Assembly (NCBI GenBank): GCA_016932435.1 | Contig: JAFGCW010000013.1 | Location: forward strand, 1 to 64,000 | From: Dehalococcoidales bacterium | Lineage (GTDB): Bacteria; Chloroflexota; Dehalococcoidia; Dehalococcoidales; UBA2162 | DNA: 64,000 nt | Direction: 5' to 3' | In this document: positions 44,026 through 55,813 of the stretch, one piece after another | How positions within the stretch are numbered: position 1 is the stretch's first letter | Layout of the letters: each line of letters begins with the position of its first letter | Notes under the pieces: generated by a model | The model's database searches: none | What the model was told of the DNA's origin: nothing | The model's input: the letters and a program-made list of their open reading frames with translations, nothing else | Position numbers and translations under genes: made by a program

Positions 44026-44466
44026 TTAGTACCCTATTATTAAATAGGGTATTACCGACACGGCTACACTCACTATTATCCAAAAAATCGTCAAGCCTAT
44101 CCCCGTCCATAATAACTTAACCGCTTTATTCCTGTCGCTATCCTTCACAACCAGAAATGCAATCAATCCCCCTATCCAGGCCATGAATATCGGTAAAAGC
44201 CACCAGGCAGCAGAAGTTTTTACTTGCGTCGTAGCCTTGATATCAGGTTGTTGCTGAATCTCTGGAGATAATCTTGATCCGCAGTTTTTACAGAAAACAC
44301 TGTCCCTGGTATTAGGTGCATTACAGCGTGAGCATATGATCTCGTCTACATGGGTCGGGATTTCTGAAATCGAATCGACTGGTTCATCTATAACAAGTTC
44401 CGTGCCGCAATTTCCACAAAAGGCAGCTCCTTCCTCGTTTACAAAATTACACCGACTACATCTCAT
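44026..44466 (-). CDS. Membrane protein with two N-terminal zinc ribbons
   Basis: 146 residues. Two double-CxxC zinc ribbons: CSRCNFVNEEGAAFCGNCGT at about 3-22 and CSRCNAPNTRDSVFCKNCGS at about 45-64. The C-terminal half has two membrane segments (AWWLLPIFMAWIGGLIAFLV; LTIFWIIVSVAVSVIPYLII). The ribbons probably face the cytoplasm. Last gene of the four-gene operon starting at 48.1 kb. Function unknown; the neighbours suggest a subunit of a membrane complex. Confidence 0.85.
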   Translation of the reverse strand: MRCSRCNFVNEEGAAFCGNCGTELVIDEPVDSISEIPTHVDEIICSRCNAPNTRDSVFCKNCGSRLSPEIQQQPDIKATTQVKTSAAWWLLPIFMAWIGGLIAFLVVKDSDRNKAVKLLWTGIGLTIFWIIVSVAVSVIPYLIIGY

Positions 44467-44476
44467 AATAATTCCC

Positions 44477-45130
44477 TCACCGGCTTTTCAATGGTTTCCC
44501 GCAATGTATGCAAAATTTCATACCTTTAGCGTTCTGCGTATTACAATTAGGACAAACCATAGAATCTGGTCCGATAGGTCTATCAGCGGTTTCCACAGGT
44601 GCTGCTAAAGCTTTCCCGCAGTGCACACAAAAAAGCAAGCCTTTTGCATTACGCTCTCCGCAATTAGGACATACTATATCACCGTTCAACTTTATTAACT
44701 TGTAGAGTATTATCGCCTGTGTCCCTAATGTTACTCCGGTTCCGAGGCTCATCCCTCCGAATCCGATACTCAGGCTAAGCGATTGCCCCAGAACAACAAG
44801 TGTCTGATTTACACCGTAACACAACGCCCAGATAACGAGAAACCATATTGTGTTCTGTGCTTTCTTCCGATTATCCTTCTCGAGCCATACCTTTGTCTTG
44901 TTGCCCTGCCCCAATCCCAGTAATAGACCGAATACCATGATTATCATAACAATATAAAAAGGCAGACTGGTTCCGACTATAGCCGCGTAAACAATAATAG
45001 CTATCGTGCTGATGGCAATCGCTATCAATGGACCCTTAATGGATACCGAACGTATCCGACGAAACGTCAAGATCATTATTGCGATTAATACATATGATAG
45101 TATGGTGAGTACTACTCCTAATACCTGCAC
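44477..45130 (-). CDS. Polytopic membrane protein with two C-terminal zinc ribbons
   Basis: 217 residues. Five or so membrane segments in the first 140 residues (VVLTILSYVLIAIMILTF; AIAISTIAIIVYAAIVGTSL; FYIVMIIMVFGLLLGLGQG; FLVIWALCYGVNQTLVVLG). Two zinc ribbons follow at about 153-174 and 191-212, each of the form CPNC...FCxHCGK. The topology mirrors the next gene, where the ribbons are N-terminal. Three bases separate it from the DUF2299-like gene upstream. Function unknown. Confidence 0.85.
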   Translation of the reverse strand: MQVLGVVLTILSYVLIAIMILTFRRIRSVSIKGPLIAIAISTIAIIVYAAIVGTSLPFYIVMIIMVFGLLLGLGQGNKTKVWLEKDNRKKAQNTIWFLVIWALCYGVNQTLVVLGQSLSLSIGFGGMSLGTGVTLGTQAIILYKLIKLNGDIVCPNCGERNAKGLLFCVHCGKALAAPVETADRPIGPDSMVCPNCNTQNAKGMKFCIHCGKPLKSR

Positions 45131-45133
45131 GGC

Positions 45134-45802
45134 TTAATTCTCCTCTTCGAGTGAAGCCCCGCACTTCGTACAGAATTTCGCTTTCTTTTTATTCTCTTTT
45201 CCGCATTCCGGGCAAAAACCTGCACTTTCTTTAGCAGTCACCGCTATATCAACCGTATCATCCGCGCTGATATCAACATCATTATCGTCACTGTCCATTA
45301 GTGAACCTGAGTCCGAAACACCGGACAATACTTCCAGCGTTGGCCGCAATATCCACAGAGCTAGTATTAAACTCTTGTTCACGCCCTTGATCGCGGTTAT
45401 CAGCCTGTCTTTGGTAAGTCCGTCAAAGAATATCTCTTCAAATACCACCAGAGTTTTGATGACGTTGTCGGTATGATCCAGCAGATATGACTCGGGCCTG
45501 CTTTCCAGGGTCATATGGAGGTCGAAAATTAACTGTTCACTTTCCTGTAATGTCTTCATATATGCCATGAAGTCCTCGTCGAATGATATCCCTGCCTGGA
45601 CTATCACTACATCGTTTTCTCCTGCAGGCTGGATGATATCAATCGTACTGAAATCGAACGAGGTAACGTCCAGAGAGCCTTTATTAGGAGCAAGAACACG
45701 GAAATGAAATGAGGTGCGTTCATCAACAATCTCTTCTTTGAAAAGCTGTACTTCCTGACACCACTGCTTTATCTTTTCTTTTACGGGTATTTCCATGTTC
45801 AC
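45134..45802 (-). CDS. DUF2299-like protein with C-terminal zinc ribbon
   Basis: 222 residues, no membrane segment. Residues 1-155 resemble the DUF2299 family described mainly from archaea: VKEKIKQWCQEVQLFKEEIV, then IIQPAGENDVVIVQAGISF, and IFFDGLTKDRLITAIKGVNK. This family has a predicted chaperone-like alpha/beta fold. An acidic linker (about 165-190) leads to a zinc ribbon, CPECGKENKKKAKFCTKCGA. Placed 20 bases after the exported HExxH protein gene. The DUF2299 match is from memory of the family and needs a profile search. Confidence 0.75.
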   Translation of the reverse strand: MNMEIPVKEKIKQWCQEVQLFKEEIVDERTSFHFRVLAPNKGSLDVTSFDFSTIDIIQPAGENDVVIVQAGISFDEDFMAYMKTLQESEQLIFDLHMTLESRPESYLLDHTDNVIKTLVVFEEIFFDGLTKDRLITAIKGVNKSLILALWILRPTLEVLSGVSDSGSLMDSDDNDVDISADDTVDIAVTAKESAGFCPECGKENKKKAKFCTKCGASLEEEN

Positions 45803-45822
45803 CTCCTGCCTGATTCCTGATG

Positions 45823-48111
45823 CTATGGTTTTAGTTTTAACTGGCTCTTCAGTAAGTCTCTTTGTAAGCGCAAGTCATCGAGTCTGGTTGTATTAAATTT
45901 CTCCCAGGCTGCGAAATCCTGGTTCGTAACGTTCGGAATTTTACCTGCCTGGAAGTCCATTCGCAGATGCTGCTGGACACCTTCTTCAACACGTATCTTG
46001 TTTGCTATTGTTTGTAATTTCAACTTGTCGATATTAATGCTTTCCCTTGGCGCAATTTTCACAATTACTTTCACATCAGCTTTTGGAGCCGTAGGATTTT
46101 CCACAAGAGGGCTGTACCGCAGGTTTGCCTTGGAGTGGTAATATTCATGGCCTTTCGTCAGTTCTTCGAATGCCTGCGGGTTGCCGCCATATTTTGCAGC
46201 GGTATTTCGTATCTCGTTTGGATTTATCCGCATGTAATCAGGAGCAAGCCGGTTATTCTCTCCCAGTTTTTTTAACCCATCGTCACGGATAACCCTCATT
46301 CCTTTGTATGTCTCGCCCTTCCATTTCGATGCAAGATTTTCTCGTAATAATGTATTCTCGTTAAGTACCTGGTCCTGCAGTCCTTTCCTGAGGAGTGGAT
46401 CGCCAGGATTCAGTTTCATGGAACTTAGTCCTTCAACCGGCACAGGTTTTGTTTGGAATGAAGGTGAACTGAATAATTTATCTCCACGGTTTAACTTTAA
46501 CTTGGGTAATCCCTTGGCAGCATCACCGGCCGGTGGGCTTTCACCGGTCTTAAAAACACCTCTCTGCCCCGGAAGACTGCCCCGCCTTGCCTGATCCAGT
46601 AAATTATTGGTCATTCTACCGGCAGTCAAGGTCGTTCTACTCAGTCCTATCGCATCTGAAGCGCCTCTGTGTCCCAGTTTCATCGATGCTCCGATACCAC
46701 GCATCATTATCCGGTCAGCAGCTTTTTGCATGCGCTTAGAACAATTATCCTTGGCAGCGTTGACCCATTTCAAATTTTCGCGCGCTAAATCCAATTGCTC
46801 TTTGAGGTATTCAGCTATATCGGTATTTCCGGCTCGTTCGGCTTCGTCCATGGCGTCTCGTATCTTATTCATTTCACCGATGACGCCTTTCTGTAACTCC
46901 AGGAGTACATCCATACGCTTTTTCTGGTAGTTATACTCATCGACAGCACTGACAACTTTTGCCACCGGGGCTATATAACCAGAAGCAAAATCGTCCCTCT
47001 TCGCTTCACTCTCCGCCCACTTTTCACTCATCCTGTTTTTTGCAGATGATTCAGTTTCTAACCTCAAGGCTATATGATTCAAAGGCTCTACCTTGATTTC
47101 AGGTTTTACCCAGTTCTTACCGTCGAAAACATAGCCTTCTTCCTTCATCTTCTGCTTTTTAAGCTCATCCCTGTGGACCCACTTCCCGGTTTTCGGATCC
47201 CACTCATGATCAGGCGAAGGTCTGTTTGCCAGGCTCCACGCAGGTGACCGGGTTTTGTTCGTTTGTTTTTCAGATTTTTTATCATCCTTCTTTTGATCAT
47301 CCTCTGGCGTTTTCGTATCTTCGGATTTTTCTTCAGGAGGTTTTTCTTCTCCGGTTTCTTCAAGAACTTCTGAATTTGTATCGGTACCACCATCCCCGGT
47401 AAATATCCGTAAAAGACCTTTCACAAATTCCATGAAAGCCGGACCAGTCCCATTAGACAACGCCCACGCAAGTATTAATGCGGTGAGTATCGCCGCGGCT
47501 CCGGCAGCCTCTTCGCTACTCGGGCCGCTGCCGCCGGAGAGTTCTTGCGCTCTTTCGTTGCTGGATATATCCAGGTTGTCCGTCTTATTCCAGACCGCAT
47601 CCTGGGCATCGCTATTAAAAGTGTTCGATTTGTTAATCCGTTGCAGCACCTTCAGGAGGTCCGAATCTACGAATCCATCCGGACGGAAAACATTACTTGA
47701 TCCGGGAGCGGAATCATGCTTCTCACCGCAAAAGGCTTTGAAGACAAAATCACTTTGTCCCGGAGGAATTGTAAATATCTCATTACCGGCGGTTACCATC
47801 GTCTGCACGCTGATATTATCGGGAGCCAAACGAAGTCCTATCGGAACTCTCACCTTGATAGTACTCCCGGTATTATTATTGAAATATACCCTCATCGAAT
47901 CGCCATACCATCCGCCACCCGAACCTCTTACCTGTACGTCAAGGCCTGACATACCCCCGGTCATGGCGTTATGAAGATCGATATCATAATCAGCAGCATG
48001 AACCGGATTTGAAATGCAGATTAATAGACCGAATGCAAAAAAAAGAACGACCAGAAGTATTCTGATCTTCGATAACATAACTAAACGCAACAAATTCTCT
48101 CTCAATGTCAT
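45823..48111 (-). CDS. Exported, membrane-anchored protein with C-terminal HExxH metallopeptidase-like domain
   Basis: 762 residues. A signal peptide ends at about 40 (VHA, then ADYDIDL). A beta-rich extracellular domain covers about 41-185 (RVYFNNNTGSTIKVRVPIGL; IPPGQSDFVFKAFCGEKHDS). A membrane segment follows at about 205-230, then a highly charged linker (EEKPPEEKSEDTKTPEDDQK) and a W-motif pair (DPKTGKWVHRDE; FDGKNWVKPE). A long helical region (about 380-480) comes next. The last 150 residues carry GHEYYHSKANLRYSP, an HExxH zinc site at about 655-659, and a downstream RVEEGVQQH that could give the third ligand. It may be a polymorphic-toxin-like or signalling protease. First gene of the zinc-ribbon operon. 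Confidence 0.8.
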   Translation of the reverse strand: MTLRENLLRLVMLSKIRILLVVLFFAFGLLICISNPVHAADYDIDLHNAMTGGMSGLDVQVRGSGGGWYGDSMRVYFNNNTGSTIKVRVPIGLRLAPDNISVQTMVTAGNEIFTIPPGQSDFVFKAFCGEKHDSAPGSSNVFRPDGFVDSDLLKVLQRINKSNTFNSDAQDAVWNKTDNLDISSNERAQELSGGSGPSSEEAAGAAAILTALILAWALSNGTGPAFMEFVKGLLRIFTGDGGTDTNSEVLEETGEEKPPEEKSEDTKTPEDDQKKDDKKSEKQTNKTRSPAWSLANRPSPDHEWDPKTGKWVHRDELKKQKMKEEGYVFDGKNWVKPEIKVEPLNHIALRLETESSAKNRMSEKWAESEAKRDDFASGYIAPVAKVVSAVDEYNYQKKRMDVLLELQKGVIGEMNKIRDAMDEAERAGNTDIAEYLKEQLDLARENLKWVNAAKDNCSKRMQKAADRIMMRGIGASMKLGHRGASDAIGLSRTTLTAGRMTNNLLDQARRGSLPGQRGVFKTGESPPAGDAAKGLPKLKLNRGDKLFSSPSFQTKPVPVEGLSSMKLNPGDPLLRKGLQDQVLNENTLLRENLASKWKGETYKGMRVIRDDGLKKLGENNRLAPDYMRINPNEIRNTAAKYGGNPQAFEELTKGHEYYHSKANLRYSPLVENPTAPKADVKVIVKIAPRESINIDKLKLQTIANKIRVEEGVQQHLRMDFQAGKIPNVTNQDFAAWEKFNTTRLDDLRLQRDLLKSQLKLKP

Positions 48112-48534: not shown

Positions 48535-50859
48535 TTACTCGTTTATCAGGTAACTGAGGGCATCGCCGGTCCTGGTTTCGTCGCGGAAAGAAAGGATTAT
48601 ATATATCAGACTCCATTCATCCGTACCAGTTTCTAAATCGATTTGAGCAGTGGTATGACCGGGCATGAGTAGTCCGCTTGCCCAGGTAACATAAAAAGTA
48701 TCGACATCCACTCCATCGGCAGTCATTCCTAGAGACATACCATTCCAGCAGTTATTGGGATTACCTGCATTGTTTTGGTTGGAGTTCGTGCCGTCCCAGA
48801 ATTTGGTACCATTGAATTTCAGGTAGTCACCAGTCCAGCCATCATCACCTTCACCGACGAACACGGTCATCTTGGCTGCATTAACCTCACCTGCGACTGG
48901 TTCGGGAACTAAAAACTTGGTAATTGTTCCTCCCGGTGAACCATCCTGGTCGAAATCGAAATTTTGATTTCCATCGCAATGTAAAAACGTATCATAAAGG
49001 TAAAGACTGTGTCCTTGTGTCTCTGCGCTTGAGTAGATAATTACCATAGACCATCCGGCATATGCAAGGTAGCTTTCACTTCCGGAGGTGTAACCGGTGC
49101 TTATAGTATCCGCAGCTACATCCCCGACCGTATAAACAGCGTTACCCGGGTGGTTGATAGCTGGATCAGGTGCCTTTGGGCTGAAAGCCTTCACCAGGGC
49201 AGTTACGTCTTTAAAACAGACATATGAATATCCTTCTGGAGTAGCACCTATGAAGTTTTCCATACTGTCTGACCAGCCTGCGACGATTTTTTCGGCACCC
49301 ATTGTAGGAGTTCCATCGCCTGCGAAATACACCTGGTTTCCATCTATCTTAAATTCTATCGAAGTATCAGGGATCATTTCCGAAGTTGTTACCGTAATAG
49401 TATCGATGTAACAGTATTCATAATAACCATCAAAACCCTCGATGTAAAACCTCATTGAGAAATTTTCGGTTAAACAGGCTTGAGGAATATCATATTCGAA
49501 GGTTGAAGCCGGATTATCATTTTCAAATGCCTTTATATTTCCTCCCCAACTACTCCCATTATCTGAAGAAAATGCGAACCATAGCTTATCGCCTGATTCC
49601 AGTGTTCCATATTCAGACTGGTTCCACATTACTTTCACATCGCCTTCAATGAAACCGCTCAGGTTAACGCTTTCATTTAGAGTGACAGTTCTTGCAGCAG
49701 GAACGATCCCGGAACTGTAATGTCCCCTGAATCTACTACTCGAAATACTCCAGGCACTGCCATTATTCCAGTTATCAAAATTATTACAGGTATCGTAAAA
49801 CTCTACTCCGTTCCTCCAGCCTGTCCAGTAAAGATAAGCGGCTCTCACGGTAGCATCGACTGGAATCTCACTGACATTCGCGCTGCTCTCGGAAAGCAAC
49901 GTATCACGAAATTGACCATCATGGTCTGCGTCTATCATTAATGAATTTCCAGATGCTATATAATCTCCAGCGATACCTCCGCTTAACAGGCGTGTCTCGC
50001 TTTTCGCCATCCAGGCTTCTATTGCGGTTGTTCCCGCAATAGAAGTAGCTTTATATACCTTAACATCCGATTCCCAAGAGAAAGGTATATCGGCAACGTT
50101 ACTGGTTGATATCCAAGCAACTGTATCAGGATCAGTATCGGATAGTTCCGAGTCGAGTTGGAAGGTAATCTCAGCGACTCTGGGGGAATTCGCAGGATTT
50201 ACTCCCGGCAGGTTGTCAAAATCCTCGGAAGTGAAATTCCAGATTACGGCTTCATTGCCGGCATGCGACACGACCGTGATATTATCCGTAAAAGGAGGTT
50301 CCATATTGGAACTCCCTGAAACATAACGGAAACCTCTCGGGAGCCACACACCTATACTTTCAACTTTTAGATCATCTCCTACCTCGGGGAAATAGGTAAT
50401 TATTATATTATAACTTGAAGAGCCGTTTGCGCTGGTAATTATTAATTTTTCCTCCTCGACTATCGCTCTGGCTACTGAATCGCTTGGTGCGGGAATGTCA
50501 ACAGGAATCCAGACGTTCTCGATCGTTATGGTAACGTTTTCACCATTAATTAATTCAGAAGTACTATAGGTCCAGTCATTGGAAAATTTATAATATTCAT
50601 ACGTTGGACTGGTTAAGAATGTATCCAGATAATCGTATTTGATTATCCATCTGGCATCTTCGATACCGGCATCAGCAGCATACAGTTCGGCTGCCTTATT
50701 TTCATAAACCTGACCGGTCAGCATCCCCGATATTGAGGATTGAAGCAGGATAACACAAAGAGAGCTGCCCACCAGGAACATTACCAGTACCAGGACCAGT
50801 ACACTGCCCTTTTGTCTGCGACCTTTACTTTTTTTCAGATATTGAAATGAGTTAAACAT
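48535..50859 (-). CDS. Giant GspK/PilX-type minor pilin (cassette B, gene 3)
   Basis: 774 residues. Prepilin-like N-terminus: a basic leader (KKSKGRRQKG), then SVLVLVLVMFLVGSSLCVIL without Glu at +5 and AAELYAADAGIEDARWIIKY after the helix, the GspK/PilX pattern. A first beta domain (about 150-270, GVWLPRGFRYVSGSSNMEPP) is shared with the cassette A protein. Further on are a jelly-roll-like domain (about 355-490) and a distal domain with AAYLYWTGWRNG, SYLAYAGWSMVIIYSSAETQ and DFDQDGSPGG, a possible calcium loop. The distal part recalls DUF3344-type surface domains. Likely a tip adhesin of a type IV-like pilus. Paralog of the protein at 53.5 kb. Confidence 0.85.
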   Translation of the reverse strand: MFNSFQYLKKSKGRRQKGSVLVLVLVMFLVGSSLCVILLQSSISGMLTGQVYENKAAELYAADAGIEDARWIIKYDYLDTFLTSPTYEYYKFSNDWTYSTSELINGENVTITIENVWIPVDIPAPSDSVARAIVEEEKLIITSANGSSSYNIIITYFPEVGDDLKVESIGVWLPRGFRYVSGSSNMEPPFTDNITVVSHAGNEAVIWNFTSEDFDNLPGVNPANSPRVAEITFQLDSELSDTDPDTVAWISTSNVADIPFSWESDVKVYKATSIAGTTAIEAWMAKSETRLLSGGIAGDYIASGNSLMIDADHDGQFRDTLLSESSANVSEIPVDATVRAAYLYWTGWRNGVEFYDTCNNFDNWNNGSAWSISSSRFRGHYSSGIVPAARTVTLNESVNLSGFIEGDVKVMWNQSEYGTLESGDKLWFAFSSDNGSSWGGNIKAFENDNPASTFEYDIPQACLTENFSMRFYIEGFDGYYEYCYIDTITVTTSEMIPDTSIEFKIDGNQVYFAGDGTPTMGAEKIVAGWSDSMENFIGATPEGYSYVCFKDVTALVKAFSPKAPDPAINHPGNAVYTVGDVAADTISTGYTSGSESYLAYAGWSMVIIYSSAETQGHSLYLYDTFLHCDGNQNFDFDQDGSPGGTITKFLVPEPVAGEVNAAKMTVFVGEGDDGWTGDYLKFNGTKFWDGTNSNQNNAGNPNNCWNGMSLGMTADGVDVDTFYVTWASGLLMPGHTTAQIDLETGTDEWSLIYIILSFRDETRTGDALSYLINE

Positions 50860-50873
50860 CCTTCAATCCTCAA

Positions 50874-51392
50874 CTACTGTGATTTAGGTATAATGATAAC
50901 CTCTCTTGTTTCATTTACCGGTTTGTACCCACCTGTCGAGATGGTAATCACAAAGGTAAGTGCGCTACCACTATATGTACAATTCGTTGCGGTTGAAGCC
51001 TCGTTAACATATTGAGCAGCGACCGTAACAACAGGTGTATTGCCATTTTTAGAGCAAGAACGGAGGAGTTCGTTATTCTGGACTGTATAGGTAATATTAG
51101 ATGTCGTGTTGTCCCACCCAACCCAATAGAGAGAGAGGGGGAATCCCGAGGCGCCTGCGTCAGTTTGAACACTTTGCGCCATCTGCGTGTCCATGCTAAT
51201 CCAGTAAAGCGCTTTTTCTATCTGCTTTATAGCAAGCAAATGATTACTTTCAGATGAGTTGATGTCCTGGATGTGGATTATTAACAGGTTAATAACCGGA
51301 GCAAGAATGCCTATTATGGCCACACTCACAAGCATCTCTACAAGAGTAAAGCCCTTCTTATTAACTGGTCTGGTTTTCAATAATTTACACAT
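50874..51392 (-). CDS. Minor pseudopilin, GspJ/PilW type (cassette B, gene 2)
   Basis: 172 residues. Leader ending KKG, then FTLVEMLVSVAIIGILAPVI with Glu at +5. The soluble part shares AIKQIEKALYWISMDTQMAQ, FPLSLYWVGWDNTTSNITYT and a C-terminal ETREVIIIP with the second genes of cassettes A and C. It starts one base after gene 1 ends and is 14 bases before gene 3, so the cassette is an operon. Confidence 0.9.
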   Translation of the reverse strand: MCKLLKTRPVNKKGFTLVEMLVSVAIIGILAPVINLLIIHIQDINSSESNHLLAIKQIEKALYWISMDTQMAQSVQTDAGASGFPLSLYWVGWDNTTSNITYTVQNNELLRSCSKNGNTPVVTVAAQYVNEASTATNCTYSGSALTFVITISTGGYKPVNETREVIIIPKSQ

Positions 51393-51393
51393 A

Positions 51394-51768
51394 TCAATTC
51401 AATTTATAGCCTTCCAGACTTGTTACATTTATCCCGTGGTGTACGATTTTCACTGTAATTTTCTGGATGTTGCCATCACGTAGATTTACCATACTAGTGG
51501 TGATATTTGCAGTGTAATTACTATAAGCTTCAGGAATCGGAGCCGGTTCATAAGAAACCATGTAAGCCTGGTTTTTAATATATTCCATCTGATATTCAGC
51601 TAGATTCTTCGCTGTTTCATCTTCATCTATCGAAGCGCCAAGACTAGTCGAGGTACCCAAGCTGTTAACAAAAAACACAGCTATAAAGCCTACGATAGCT
51701 ACAGCTACCAGTGACTCTATTAACGTAAATCCGGATTGATTGGGATGAATGAACTTAAAAGCTCTCAT
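51394..51768 (-). CDS. Minor pseudopilin, GspI/PilV type (cassette B, gene 1)
   Basis: 124 residues. Leader ending NQSG, then FTLIESLVAVAIVGFIAVFF with Glu at +5. The body has LAEYQMEYIKNQAYM, YTANITTS, IQKITVKIVHHG and SLEGYK, shared with the first genes of the other two cassettes. Transcribed away from cassette C across a 788-bp divergent region. Confidence 0.9.
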   Translation of the reverse strand: MRAFKFIHPNQSGFTLIESLVAVAIVGFIAVFFVNSLGTSTSLGASIDEDETAKNLAEYQMEYIKNQAYMVSYEPAPIPEAYSNYTANITTSMVNLRDGNIQKITVKIVHHGINVTSLEGYKLN

Positions 51769-52556: not shown

Positions 52557-52913
52557 TTGAAAATCGAGAGAGGATTCAATCTAATCGAGATACTGCTGTC
52601 TTTAGCACTTCTCGGCATACTGGCAATCGTCTTTTTGTCTACTTTCAGCAGTGGCTCTAAAGTACTCATTTTGACCGATGAGCAGGAGACAGCGAAGAAC
52701 GTGGCTGAGAGTCAGATGGAGTATGTCCAGAAGCAACCCTTCGCTTCTGCCTATTCCGCAGCCCCGATTGGAGCTGATTATCCCGGATATTCTGCCAATA
52801 TTTCCACCACGAGTATCACTTCAAGGGATAGTAATATCCAGAGGATAATAGTGATAGTAATACGTCATGGAGAAGAGATAACACGATTAGAAGGATTCAA
52901 GACAAGGTTATGA
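52557..52913 (+). CDS. Minor pseudopilin, GspI/PilV type (cassette C, gene 1)
   Basis: 118 residues, TTG start behind GAAGGAAAAG. Very short leader MKIERG, then FNLIEILLSLALLGILAIVF with Glu at +5. The body has VAESQMEYVQKQPFASAYSA, GYSANIST, IQRIIVIVIRHG and RLEGFK, parallel to the first genes of cassettes A and B. Its stop overlaps the start of gene 2 by 4 bases. Confidence 0.9.
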   Translation: MKIERGFNLIEILLSLALLGILAIVFLSTFSSGSKVLILTDEQETAKNVAESQMEYVQKQPFASAYSAAPIGADYPGYSANISTTSITSRDSNIQRIIVIVIRHGEEITRLEGFKTRL

Positions 52914-53446
52914 CGTTCAGAAAATTATATCTGACAGTTAGAAATCAACACGGCTTCACGCTGATTGAACTGCTCGTAGCAATGTGTATAGCCGGCTTAA
53001 TTATCGGTACGATTACTATGACCATCTTTCAGGTGCTGGTCAATCCGGCTCAAAGCAGCAATCACATGACCGCTGTAAAACAGGTTGAGAATGCCATCCA
53101 CTGGATGAGGCGTGATGTCATACAGGCTCAAATTATAGAACCTGGTGTAAGTTCAGGTTTTCCTCTGAAACTGACATGGACCGATTGGAACAACATTAAA
53201 AATGAAGTCACTTACAGCCTGCAAAATGACAGGCTTCAACGAGGATATGTCACTTATGATGCAGAAGGCGACTTAACAGATAATCGGACTCAAATTGTGG
53301 CTGAACATATCGACAGCGACTCTGGAATGACCAGCTGCCAGATAGTTGGTAGTGTCCTTTCTTTTAAAATAACGTCTAACGTTACGGGATTTTGGCCCTC
53401 CATTGAAACCAGGTTAGTTGAAATTGCCGCCAGACCTGCCGATTGA
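52910..53446 (+). CDS. Minor pseudopilin, GspJ/PilW type (cassette C, gene 2)
   Basis: 178 residues. Leader ending QHG, then FTLIELLVAMCIAGLIIGTI with Glu at +5. The soluble part has AVKQVENAIHWMRRDVIQAQ, FPLKLTWTDWNNIKNEVTYS and an ETRLVEIAA end, parallel to cassette B gene 2. Twelve bases before gene 3. Confidence 0.9.
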   Translation: MTFRKLYLTVRNQHGFTLIELLVAMCIAGLIIGTITMTIFQVLVNPAQSSNHMTAVKQVENAIHWMRRDVIQAQIIEPGVSSGFPLKLTWTDWNNIKNEVTYSLQNDRLQRGYVTYDAEGDLTDNRTQIVAEHIDSDSGMTSCQIVGSVLSFKITSNVTGFWPSIETRLVEIAARPAD

Positions 53447-53458
53447 GGTGAGTAGTTA

Positions 53459-55813
53459 ATGGTAAAGCAGAAAAGAATAGTGTCAAACAGGAAAACCGGT
53501 CAAAGAGGACATACCCTGATTATGGTGCTAATTCTGCTACTCCTGGGCAGTCTGATAATAACCCCTTTTCTAAGTCACTTAACCACAGGTACCAGAACCA
53601 GTCTGGAATTCGAAAGGAAAACGCATGAGTTTTATGCGGCAGATTCCGGTATACAGGATGGTCAGTGGCAGATAAGGTTCAATCATTTGAGTGATACCTT
53701 CGTTGACTACAGCCCGTATGACTACATCTCGTCCTGGAGTTATAACCTGCCGGAACAGGTAAATACCTTCACGGTCAATACCACTCTACAAAATTCCTGG
53801 ATTCCTAAAAACATGCCACCCCCGGACGAGAGTGACGTAAAGCGTATACTCATGGGTGATCAGAGTAACCCGCCGAAGGTAATAATAACCGGAACCGTTT
53901 CAGACGTATCAACCTTCCAGATAAAGCTACAATACTATCCCGATGCCGGAGAGGATCTGAGAATAGAGACTATCGGAGTGTGGCTGCCTGCCGGCTTCAA
54001 TTACGTCAACGGATCAGGCAGTCTTGAAGCATCTCCCTACCACTTCACGCCGGATGTTGAATCCTGGGCTGGCGGGCAGGTTGTTCTCTGGAGTTGTGGT
54101 TCCTATCCTTTCGCTGGTGATGCATTTTTTGATCCCTTCCCCGGAGCTGATCCTGCAGACACCCCCATGGTCAGTACTATGACCTTCCAGTTCACCGGCC
54201 CGTCTCAGGACCTTGAAGCCATCTCCTGGGTAGACACAAACCTGGACTTGACCCGGGGAGGAACCGAATTTATAACCTACGCCTGGGATGCAGATATTAA
54301 AGTTTACAAGATTACCGCTGTGGCTGGTGATACTGAGATAGAAGCCTATTTCCCGAAGAGTGAATTACGAGAACTTGGGGCTGCCATCGGAGGTGACTAC
54401 CGGGCTATAGGCAACAGCCTGATGGCACGTAGTAATAATACGTATAAATACCGGGATATCCTCCTTACTGAGACCAGCACCACCGTTGACGATATACCAT
54501 CTGGTGCCTATGTGGCTAAGGCTTATCTTTACTGGTCGGGCTGGTTTAAAGATATTACCACTGTATGGGGCCCGGATGACTGTTCAAATTTCACGGCACC
54601 GATTATGAACTGGAACGCCGATAACGCTTGGGATGTTGATTCGTCCAGATTCCGAGGATACACTTACGGTAAAAGTAGTCCCGGTAGATATCTTACCATG
54701 GACTCTACCGTTGACCTGAGTGGCTATGCAGGAGAAATAATAAAGATTTCCTGGCAACAATGGGAAGAGGGAGGCCTTAATCCCGATGACGCTCTTGAGT
54801 TTCAGTTCTCGGGGAATGGTGGTGCTACGTGGAGCAGTCTTATAACTGCGTTCTCCGGGAATATTGGAAGCACACCGGAAACCTTCGCATTTACTATTCC
54901 TGATCAGTACCTAACCGGTAATTTTAAAATAAGGTTCTACCTGGAAGGCTTCGATAGCCCGGGAGAAATTGCTTATATCGACAATATTGAGATTAGATGG
55001 CTACCTGCCGATACCTCCGCTATCTTCAAGATAGATGGTCAGCAGGTTTACTTTGATTCTAATGGCATTCCTCAGAAGGGTAACCAGGAGATTATTGTCG
55101 ATCCGGCTAATCTGGGTGACAGAGTGCAGGTTATCGACAACACGAGCCACGGTAATCCTCATGGCTATTCTTACTCCTCCCGTAAAGATGTTACCGCACT
55201 TGTCAGGGAATATAGTGACTGCGGTAACGCTGACTACACTGTAGGCAGTGTGGAGGCTACCTGTGATGCGGATGATGAGTGGGCTTACGCAGGCTGGTCG
55301 CTGATTATAGTCTATTCCAGCGTAGATACAGTAGGGCACCGGCTCTATCTCTATGATGATTTCCTTTACAAAGATCACGATGGCACATATCTTGATTTTG
55401 ACCAGGACGGCAATGAAGGAGGTATTATCAGTGGATTTATTATCCCCGAACCGATGAGTGGTGAAGTAAACGCAGCCAGGATAACAGCCTTCGTCGGTGA
55501 GGGTGATATATGGTACTCCGGTGATTATCTTCAATTCAATGGTGACAGGCTCTGGGATGGCACGACTACTAATGGCAACACTGAAAGTGGTCCGAATAAC
55601 TGCTGGAACGGTGAGTCAGTCGGTATGAGTGCTGAAGGCGTCGATGTAGATACCTTTAACATTGCCTGGAGTGAAGGATTGCTTGAGCCAGGAGATACAT
55701 CAGCCCGGATAGACATCTTAACCAATTATGACATTTGGAACCTTGTCTATATCATTCTTTCATTCCGAAGTGAATCGACGACCGGTCGAAGCATAAGTTA
55801 TCTGATACGCTGA
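53459..55813 (+). CDS. Giant GspK/PilX-type minor pilin (cassette C, gene 3)
   Basis: 784 residues, collinear with the 774-residue protein of cassette B. After a basic leader comes HTLIMVLILLLLGSLIITPF, then HEFYAADSGIQDGQWQIRFN. Domains: first beta domain (IGVWLPAGFNYVNGSGSLEA), jelly-roll-like domain around 365-510 (STVDLSGYAGEIIKISWQQW), distal domain with AKAYLYWSGWFKDI, HGYSYSSRKDVTALVREYS, EWAYAGWSLIIVYSSVDTVG and DFDQDGNEGG, and the shared close NLVYIILSFRSESTTGRSIS. Probably a pilus-tip surface-binding protein; ligand unknown. No assembly ATPase or peptidase gene is in the window. Confidence 0.85.
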   Translation: MVKQKRIVSNRKTGQRGHTLIMVLILLLLGSLIITPFLSHLTTGTRTSLEFERKTHEFYAADSGIQDGQWQIRFNHLSDTFVDYSPYDYISSWSYNLPEQVNTFTVNTTLQNSWIPKNMPPPDESDVKRILMGDQSNPPKVIITGTVSDVSTFQIKLQYYPDAGEDLRIETIGVWLPAGFNYVNGSGSLEASPYHFTPDVESWAGGQVVLWSCGSYPFAGDAFFDPFPGADPADTPMVSTMTFQFTGPSQDLEAISWVDTNLDLTRGGTEFITYAWDADIKVYKITAVAGDTEIEAYFPKSELRELGAAIGGDYRAIGNSLMARSNNTYKYRDILLTETSTTVDDIPSGAYVAKAYLYWSGWFKDITTVWGPDDCSNFTAPIMNWNADNAWDVDSSRFRGYTYGKSSPGRYLTMDSTVDLSGYAGEIIKISWQQWEEGGLNPDDALEFQFSGNGGATWSSLITAFSGNIGSTPETFAFTIPDQYLTGNFKIRFYLEGFDSPGEIAYIDNIEIRWLPADTSAIFKIDGQQVYFDSNGIPQKGNQEIIVDPANLGDRVQVIDNTSHGNPHGYSYSSRKDVTALVREYSDCGNADYTVGSVEATCDADDEWAYAGWSLIIVYSSVDTVGHRLYLYDDFLYKDHDGTYLDFDQDGNEGGIISGFIIPEPMSGEVNAARITAFVGEGDIWYSGDYLQFNGDRLWDGTTTNGNTESGPNNCWNGESVGMSAEGVDVDTFNIAWSEGLLEPGDTSARIDILTNYDIWNLVYIILSFRSESTTGRSISYLIR

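Follow-up and report, generated by a model that had tools for sequence, protein, structure and literature searches.

A four-gene operon of a signal-peptide protein with variable tails and three zinc-ribbon proteins in Dehalococcoidia, with a fused counterpart in Acidimicrobiia

The closest described systems to the operon analyzed here are polymorphic toxin systems, export chaperones, the DUF2299 family and zinc-ribbon membrane proteins. The operon consists of four minus-strand genes of a Dehalococcoidales bacterium, within positions 1 to 64,000 of contig JAFGCW010000013.1 (GCA_016932435.1); this whole stretch of 64,000 nucleotides is hereafter the window. It encodes a protein with a signal peptide, a beta-rich ectodomain and a C-terminal HExxH motif (gene 1), a DUF2299 protein ending in a zinc ribbon (gene 2, occupying what we call slot 2) and two zinc-ribbon membrane proteins (genes 3 and 4). 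In the portions of the polymorphic toxin review on which we draw (PMC3482391), HExxH metallopeptidases appear among the toxin classes and the polytopic membrane peptidase PrsW is linked to toxin release. Gene 1 and its relatives resemble these systems in joining a constant N-terminal part to dissimilar C-terminal domains, including a candidate HExxH peptidase, with a small variable gene downstream. They differ in having no toxin, trafficking or immunity family above cut-off, in being single copies without free-standing cassettes where tested, and in having a polytopic partner, which another phylum carries as a fusion with the ectodomain.

Export chaperones provide a second comparison, in that a small soluble protein is encoded beside an exported client. 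DUF2299 is akin to the type III secretion chaperone fold through PDB 3CXJ; unlike those clients, however, gene 1 carries a Sec-type signal peptide, and SatS, a dedicated chaperone for SecA2 export, has a new fold that is not DUF2299 according to the portion of its description cited here (PMC6333443). Gene 2 belongs to DUF2299 (PF10061) but departs from the family elsewhere through its zinc-ribbon tail and membrane operon setting. Genes 3 and 4 share DZR-type ribbons (PF12773) with other zinc-ribbon membrane proteins, from which the operon differs in the narrow distribution of gene 4. A description of the four-gene system was not found in literature searches and family scans: a full-text search returned no paper under the name "DUF2299", nor did a search combining Dehalococcoidia, zinc ribbon, signal peptide and operon. 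Tentatively, and with somewhat less than even confidence, we read the four genes as a conserved chassis in the membrane that bears an exchangeable payload, which here would be an ectodomain-controlled cytoplasmic metallopeptidase held by its DUF2299 partner via zinc ribbons.

Gene order and the gene 3-gene 1 fusion

A first-pass annotation of the window had described four tight minus-strand genes, and the open reading frame (ORF) coordinates agree, with intergenic gaps of 20, 3 and 10 bases (Table 1). In their architecture, the genes are kept together in relatives, a check that the annotation had called for. The order of gene 1, a soluble zinc-ribbon protein, a polytopic protein with ribbons, and a protein with ribbons and membrane helices is found in all six Dehalococcoidia loci (the window, L001, G087, G193, G139 and G150); in each locus these genes share one strand, and L001 has two soluble zinc-ribbon genes after the ectodomain gene. 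These loci represent four genomic contexts rather than six. G087 and G193 share flanking trypsin-like proteases, G139 and G150 share a flank of purine genes beside gene 4, threonyl-tRNA synthetase (ThrRS) and pilin-like genes flank the operon in the window, and L001 has yet other neighbors. The labels were assigned by reading the translations, save for the pilins, whose assignment is backed by matches to N_methyl or weak ones to PilX_N. Gene 4 is 51% identical between the window and L001. Some gene 4-like ribbon match is present in 185 of 393 genomes of the class, yet strong ones are confined to the five genomes with the ectodomain, which supply the best five matches before a gap in score.

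In all five Acidimicrobiia proteins of the family, the gene 3 membrane domain precedes the gene 1 ectodomain in a single chain. A profile built solely from six free-standing gene 3 proteins scored these fusions at 24.8-79.5 bits, against a maximum of 8.5 bits in 2000 shuffles of the same segments, and among 2089 ORFs (many overlapping) from 73 sequences only gene 3 copies and the fusions reached E ≤ 1. The fusion is the best evidence on the matter and argues for genes 1 and 3 belonging to one complex; together, the gene order kept in 6/6 loci and the fusion in 5/5 support a membrane complex. The DNA examined around the five Acidimicrobiia loci contained no zinc-ribbon ORF; two of these loci (L002 and L003) lie at contig ends with flanks partly unseen. 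This absence fits ribbons acting as plugs between separate subunits. Two genomes have in common, in the vicinity of the fused gene, proteins that read as RTX-like repeat proteins and one of 850 aa with a membrane segment (L021, 2417-3802 and 12017-14569; L022, 11299-12618 and 339-2891).

The annotation of gene 2 as DUF2299-like was confirmed by Pfam (64 bits against a cut-off of 22.8, covering profile positions 1-138 of 138), and gene 2 also matches PDB 3CXJ (E 2.3e-21). The CxxC zinc ribbons reported for genes 2-4 were likewise recovered, as Zn_Ribbon_1 in gene 2 and as DZR in gene 3 (50.7 bits) and gene 4 (53 bits; cut-off 27.3); the three proteins carry one, two and two ribbons, respectively. 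Only genes 2-4 match the two-knuckle ribbon pattern among window ORFs of at least 60 aa, and the ribbons are therefore not a chance feature. Two of the three had been called polytopic, in agreement with four hydrophobic segments above threshold in gene 3 and two in gene 4; the single marginal segment of gene 2 lies within DUF2299. In PADLOC, genes 1 and 3 gave no match, and genes 2 (E 0.097) and 4 (E 0.027-0.079) gave weak, partial ones.

DUF2299 does not belong to the common core. Slot 2 holds DUF2299 and one ribbon in the window, and a "WTIGxxxGxWYR"-type domain with ribbons in the other five loci, the L001 copy being the most divergent (27% identity). The ribbon is thus constant in slot 2 and the domain before it changes. 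The additional soluble protein of L001 (9004-10119, 371 aa, C-terminal zinc ribbon) is matched in 18 of 147 other class genomes, only from residue 301 onward, that is, at its ribbon end. DUF2299 is otherwise rare in the class, occurring in 2 of 197 genomes among neighbors that read as unrelated, and the stretches retrieved around these two genes contain no zinc-ribbon ORF. In two related genomes, the ectodomain gene is immediately preceded by two genes that read as secreted trypsin-like proteases (L014, 11084-12872; L015, 1598-3386).

Table 1. Coordinates of the operon and its features in the window.
Feature	Position	Strand	Description
Gene 1 (P1)	45823..48111	-	762 aa, comprising a signal peptide, the constant ectodomain, a hydrophobic Gly/Ala-rich segment, a disordered linker, a coiled coil and the HExxH tail
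Signal peptide / first membrane segment	47998..48111	-	residues 1-38; hydrophobic core 16-34, net charge +2 before, -3 after
Constant ectodomain	47539..47991	-	residues 41-191; common to 20 family proteins
Gly/Ala-rich hydrophobic segment	47452..47508	-	residues 202-220; borderline candidate for a membrane span
Predicted helical hairpin / coiled coil	46681..46971	-	residues 381-477
C-terminal tail domain of gene 1	45826..46290	-	residues 608-762; metallopeptidase-like
HEYYH	46135..46149	-	residues 655-659; HEYWH in P0002-P0004
EE	45982..45987	-	residues 709-710; invariant in four tails; candidate third metal ligand
Gene 2 (slot 2)	45134..45802	-	222 aa: DUF2299 domain and one C-terminal zinc ribbon
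DUF2299 domain of gene 2	45347..45775	-	residues 10-152
Zinc ribbon of gene 2	45149..45217	-	residues 196-218
Gene 3 (P3)	44477..45130	-	217 aa: polytopic membrane domain and two zinc ribbons
Gene 3 membrane domain	44702..45124	-	part fused to ectodomain in Acidimicrobiia
Two zinc ribbons of gene 3	44489..44677	-	residues 152-214
Gene 4 (P4)	44026..44466	-	146 aa: two N-terminal zinc ribbons and two membrane helices

The gene 1 family and its tails

A search of 5.8 billion proteins with gene 1 returned nine clusters, one of them the window's own, and a search with residues 36-215 added the relatives P0010 and P0011. P0002-P0004 are full-length relatives; the others match the N-terminal ~200 residues only. 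Scanning one genome per species across 84,980 species uncovered four loci, one in a metagenome-assembled genome (MAG) of Dehalococcoidaceae (L001, the P0010 locus) and three in Acidimicrobiia MAGs (L002-L004), and a viral collection yielded no locus. An ectodomain profile (A3) matched 6 of 393 genomes in the class of G001, five of them strongly (G001, G087, G139, G150 and G193), and 7 of 400 in its phylum, namely the same five and two weak ones; in the class of G003 it matched 4 of 296, three strongly (G003, G450 and G645). The ThrRS of the window is 64-65% identical to those of G087, G139 and G150 and 52-53% identical to the full-length matches of G003, G450, G060 and G938; G004 yielded fragments, and in G001 the match was weak and to a different synthetase-like frame. 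From these values the window would belong to Dehalococcoidia.

Twenty distinct family proteins were compared (the window, P0002-P0009, P0011, L001-L004, G087, G139, G150, G193, G450 and G645); G506 and G060, with weak ectodomain matches and another architecture, were excluded. When the parts after the ectodomain were grouped by BLASTP (E ≤ 1e-3), seven groups emerged with no detectable similarity between them: the HExxH tail (4 proteins), a proline-rich tail (8), an Acidimicrobiia repeat type (4) and the singletons P0008, P0009, L001 and L004. A 54-residue linker match is the sole tie of P0008 to the proline-rich group, and the L002 tail is incomplete, as the protein runs off its contig.

A constant N-terminus, tails that are exchanged and a small variable gene immediately after it are also what would be expected of a polymorphic toxin-like system, in which gene 1 would carry exchangeable C-terminal toxins, slot 2 an immunity protein or chaperone, and genes 3 and 4 an unrecognised export or release device. 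The toxin-like protein with handling factors suggested by the first-pass annotation remains a rival in this form. The HExxH class of toxins noted above is in keeping with it, and given the tie between PrsW and toxin release in the part of the review cited, a membrane partner is by itself no counter-argument. Other findings point away from it. Neither gene 1 (Pfam, NCBIfam, PHROGs) nor its relatives (six and three proteins in Pfam; L001 and L014 also in PHROGs) match a toxin or trafficking family above the curated cut-off, and gene 1 has no PADLOC match; weak matches below the cut-offs include scaffolding proteins of PHROGs, which align to the coiled coil (E 0.05-0.1), and, in L001, EAD9 (E 0.43). 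In all four genomes with the second tail kind, the tail is present in a single copy joined to the ectodomain, with no free-standing cassette, and its retention in four related genomes diverged down to 31% identity looks like vertical upkeep. Overall, we judge a toxin system to be quite unlikely.

HExxH is present in four of the 20 family proteins, these being the window protein and its three nearest relatives (P0002-P0004, 45-50% identity), and the motif was found where the first-pass annotation had put it, at about residue 655. Its occurrence as HEYWH in the relatives indicates that HEYYH is not a chance match. H655, E656, H659, E709 and E710 are invariant across the four tails, in which 62 of 155 positions are invariant overall, and the EE pair, a putative metal ligand, follows the last His of HEYYH by 49 residues. 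A conserved HExxH with a downstream acidic residue, as in zincin-like metallopeptidases, is found in 4/4 tails of this kind, and the tail may be a metallopeptidase with proteolytic activity. The earlier proposal of a metallopeptidase-like domain holds for these conserved residues and is not matched by a Pfam metallopeptidase family; similarly, the expectation that homologs keep HExxH is borne out in 3/3 same-tail relatives, but the other 16 family proteins have a different tail, none with HExxH.

These 16 tails, several of which read as repeats or coiled coils, would also suit a complex for envelope assembly or scaffolding that lacks peptidase activity, in which HExxH is structural and the tails are spacers or scaffolds; that no peptidase family or fold was found points the same way. 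The joint invariance of the two His and three Glu residues in the four tails speaks against such a role, and we regard it as clearly improbable.

Topology and proposed mechanism

Gene 1 has a strong N-terminal hydrophobic segment (residues 16-34) and a weaker second one (202-220), and nothing was listed for it in Pfam at E ≤ 0.5. Its start may lie at a TTG six codons downstream, where the database copy P0001 begins. An AlphaFold2 model from an alignment of 13 rows (overall predicted local distance difference test, pLDDT, 66.5; predicted template modelling score, pTM, 0.33; linkers of low confidence) contains a beta-rich ectodomain of ~150 residues (43-191, block pLDDT mostly 83-96), for which no PDB match was found, and a long helical hairpin (381-477). 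The signal peptide, beta-rich ectodomain and helical region of the first-pass annotation are thereby upheld, and its second membrane segment is borderline.

In the arrangement that we favor, gene 1 would be exported by its signal peptide, with the constant beta ectodomain outside, and anchored by the Gly/Ala-rich segment, with the coiled coil and tail in the cytoplasm; this anchoring is the weakest step. The gene 3 membrane domain would pack on the membrane segment and ectodomain of gene 1, as the Acidimicrobiia fusions suggest. From the pattern of swaps and losses, we infer that the N-terminal domain of the slot 2 protein, here DUF2299, recognizes the variable tail and that the protein docks on gene 3 and/or gene 4 through its zinc ribbons. 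The payload in the window would be a zincin-like metallopeptidase (HEYYH and a downstream Glu) kept held or inactive by DUF2299, and sensing of a ligand or of envelope state by the ectodomain could lead the peptidase to cut a cytoplasmic or membrane target. The membrane proteolytic signaling complex of the first-pass annotation is accordingly supported as to the membrane complex, and would be proteolytic in one branch at most.

The anchoring step is also where an alternative arises, namely that the Gly/Ala-rich segment is not a span and that the whole of gene 1 is exported to act outside as an anchored peptidase or envelope protein, with slot 2 proteins as export chaperones holding the tail unfolded or inactive until Sec export. 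The hydropathy of the second segment is indeed borderline: its mean is at least 1.5 in 15 of the 20 family proteins (below in L001, L002, G645, P0009 and L004, where the script anchor missed), and 66 control stretches from four soluble proteins have a 95th percentile of 1.53 and a maximum of 1.77. The kinship of DUF2299 with secretion chaperones and the existence of dedicated Sec-type export chaperones such as SatS lend this alternative further weight. Against it, the best 19-residue stretch after the ectodomain is free of charged residues in 17 of 20 family proteins, the exceptions being G645, P0009 (one Glu at the end) and L004 (anchor missed), and the model would leave the ribbons of slot 2 and of the two membrane proteins without an obvious role. 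We consider full export unlikely.

Alongside the hydropathy values, further observations weigh against an anchored, DUF2299-held peptidase. The window tail matches no peptidase family in Pfam, NCBIfam or PHROGs, nor does P0002 in Pfam, only four sequences of the HExxH tail being known; no fold match was found for the tail in searches that the coiled coil filled; and within the full-length model the tail is helical, without confident strands and with low-confidence linkers. The charge flanks of the gene 4 helices suggest that its ribbons lie outside, although the cytoplasm is the usual place of such ribbons and the hub proposed here would be cytoplasmic. DUF2299 and the HExxH tail occur together in one locus only among those with a visible neighborhood. 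The WTIG-type slot 2 accompanies two tail kinds, that of G087, G193, G139 and G150 and that of L001, so that the link between slot 2 and tail is loose; a pairing, if there is one at all, may reside in the additional gene of L001. Finally, the gene 1 family is rare, with five strong matches in 393 class genomes.

A broader claim would make these loci an undescribed class of transmembrane device, combining a constant ectodomain of unrecognised fold and a polytopic partner with interchangeable cytoplasmic effector tails, the zinc ribbon being a common plug for holder proteins that is lost on fusion in Acidimicrobiia; here, a metallopeptidase and a DUF2299 holder would place proteolysis under control from outside. 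We hold this to be rather doubtful. If true, it would describe a modular membrane platform for signaling or for effectors. Two bacterial groups, known here mainly through metagenomes, would possess this platform, and its swap logic would resemble that of toxin systems. It would also offer a first testable role for DUF2299 and predict that each HExxH tail travels with a DUF2299-ribbon protein, so that a single unusual operon would become a family.

Distant kin of the ectodomain, sharing an "AIWALTD" end, were observed as tandem triplets of ~215-aa lipoprotein-like genes (L061, 6312-8316; L062, 6090-8086); the two genomes concerned are from the same phylum and lack a strong match to the ectodomain. 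In the window, the operon is adjoined by two divergent sets of pilin-like genes, at 48535-51768 (minus strand) and 52557-55813 (plus strand). Their products are small proteins, of which those at 50874-51392 and 52910-53446 match N_methyl, and larger ones of 774 and 784 aa that match PilX_N weakly.

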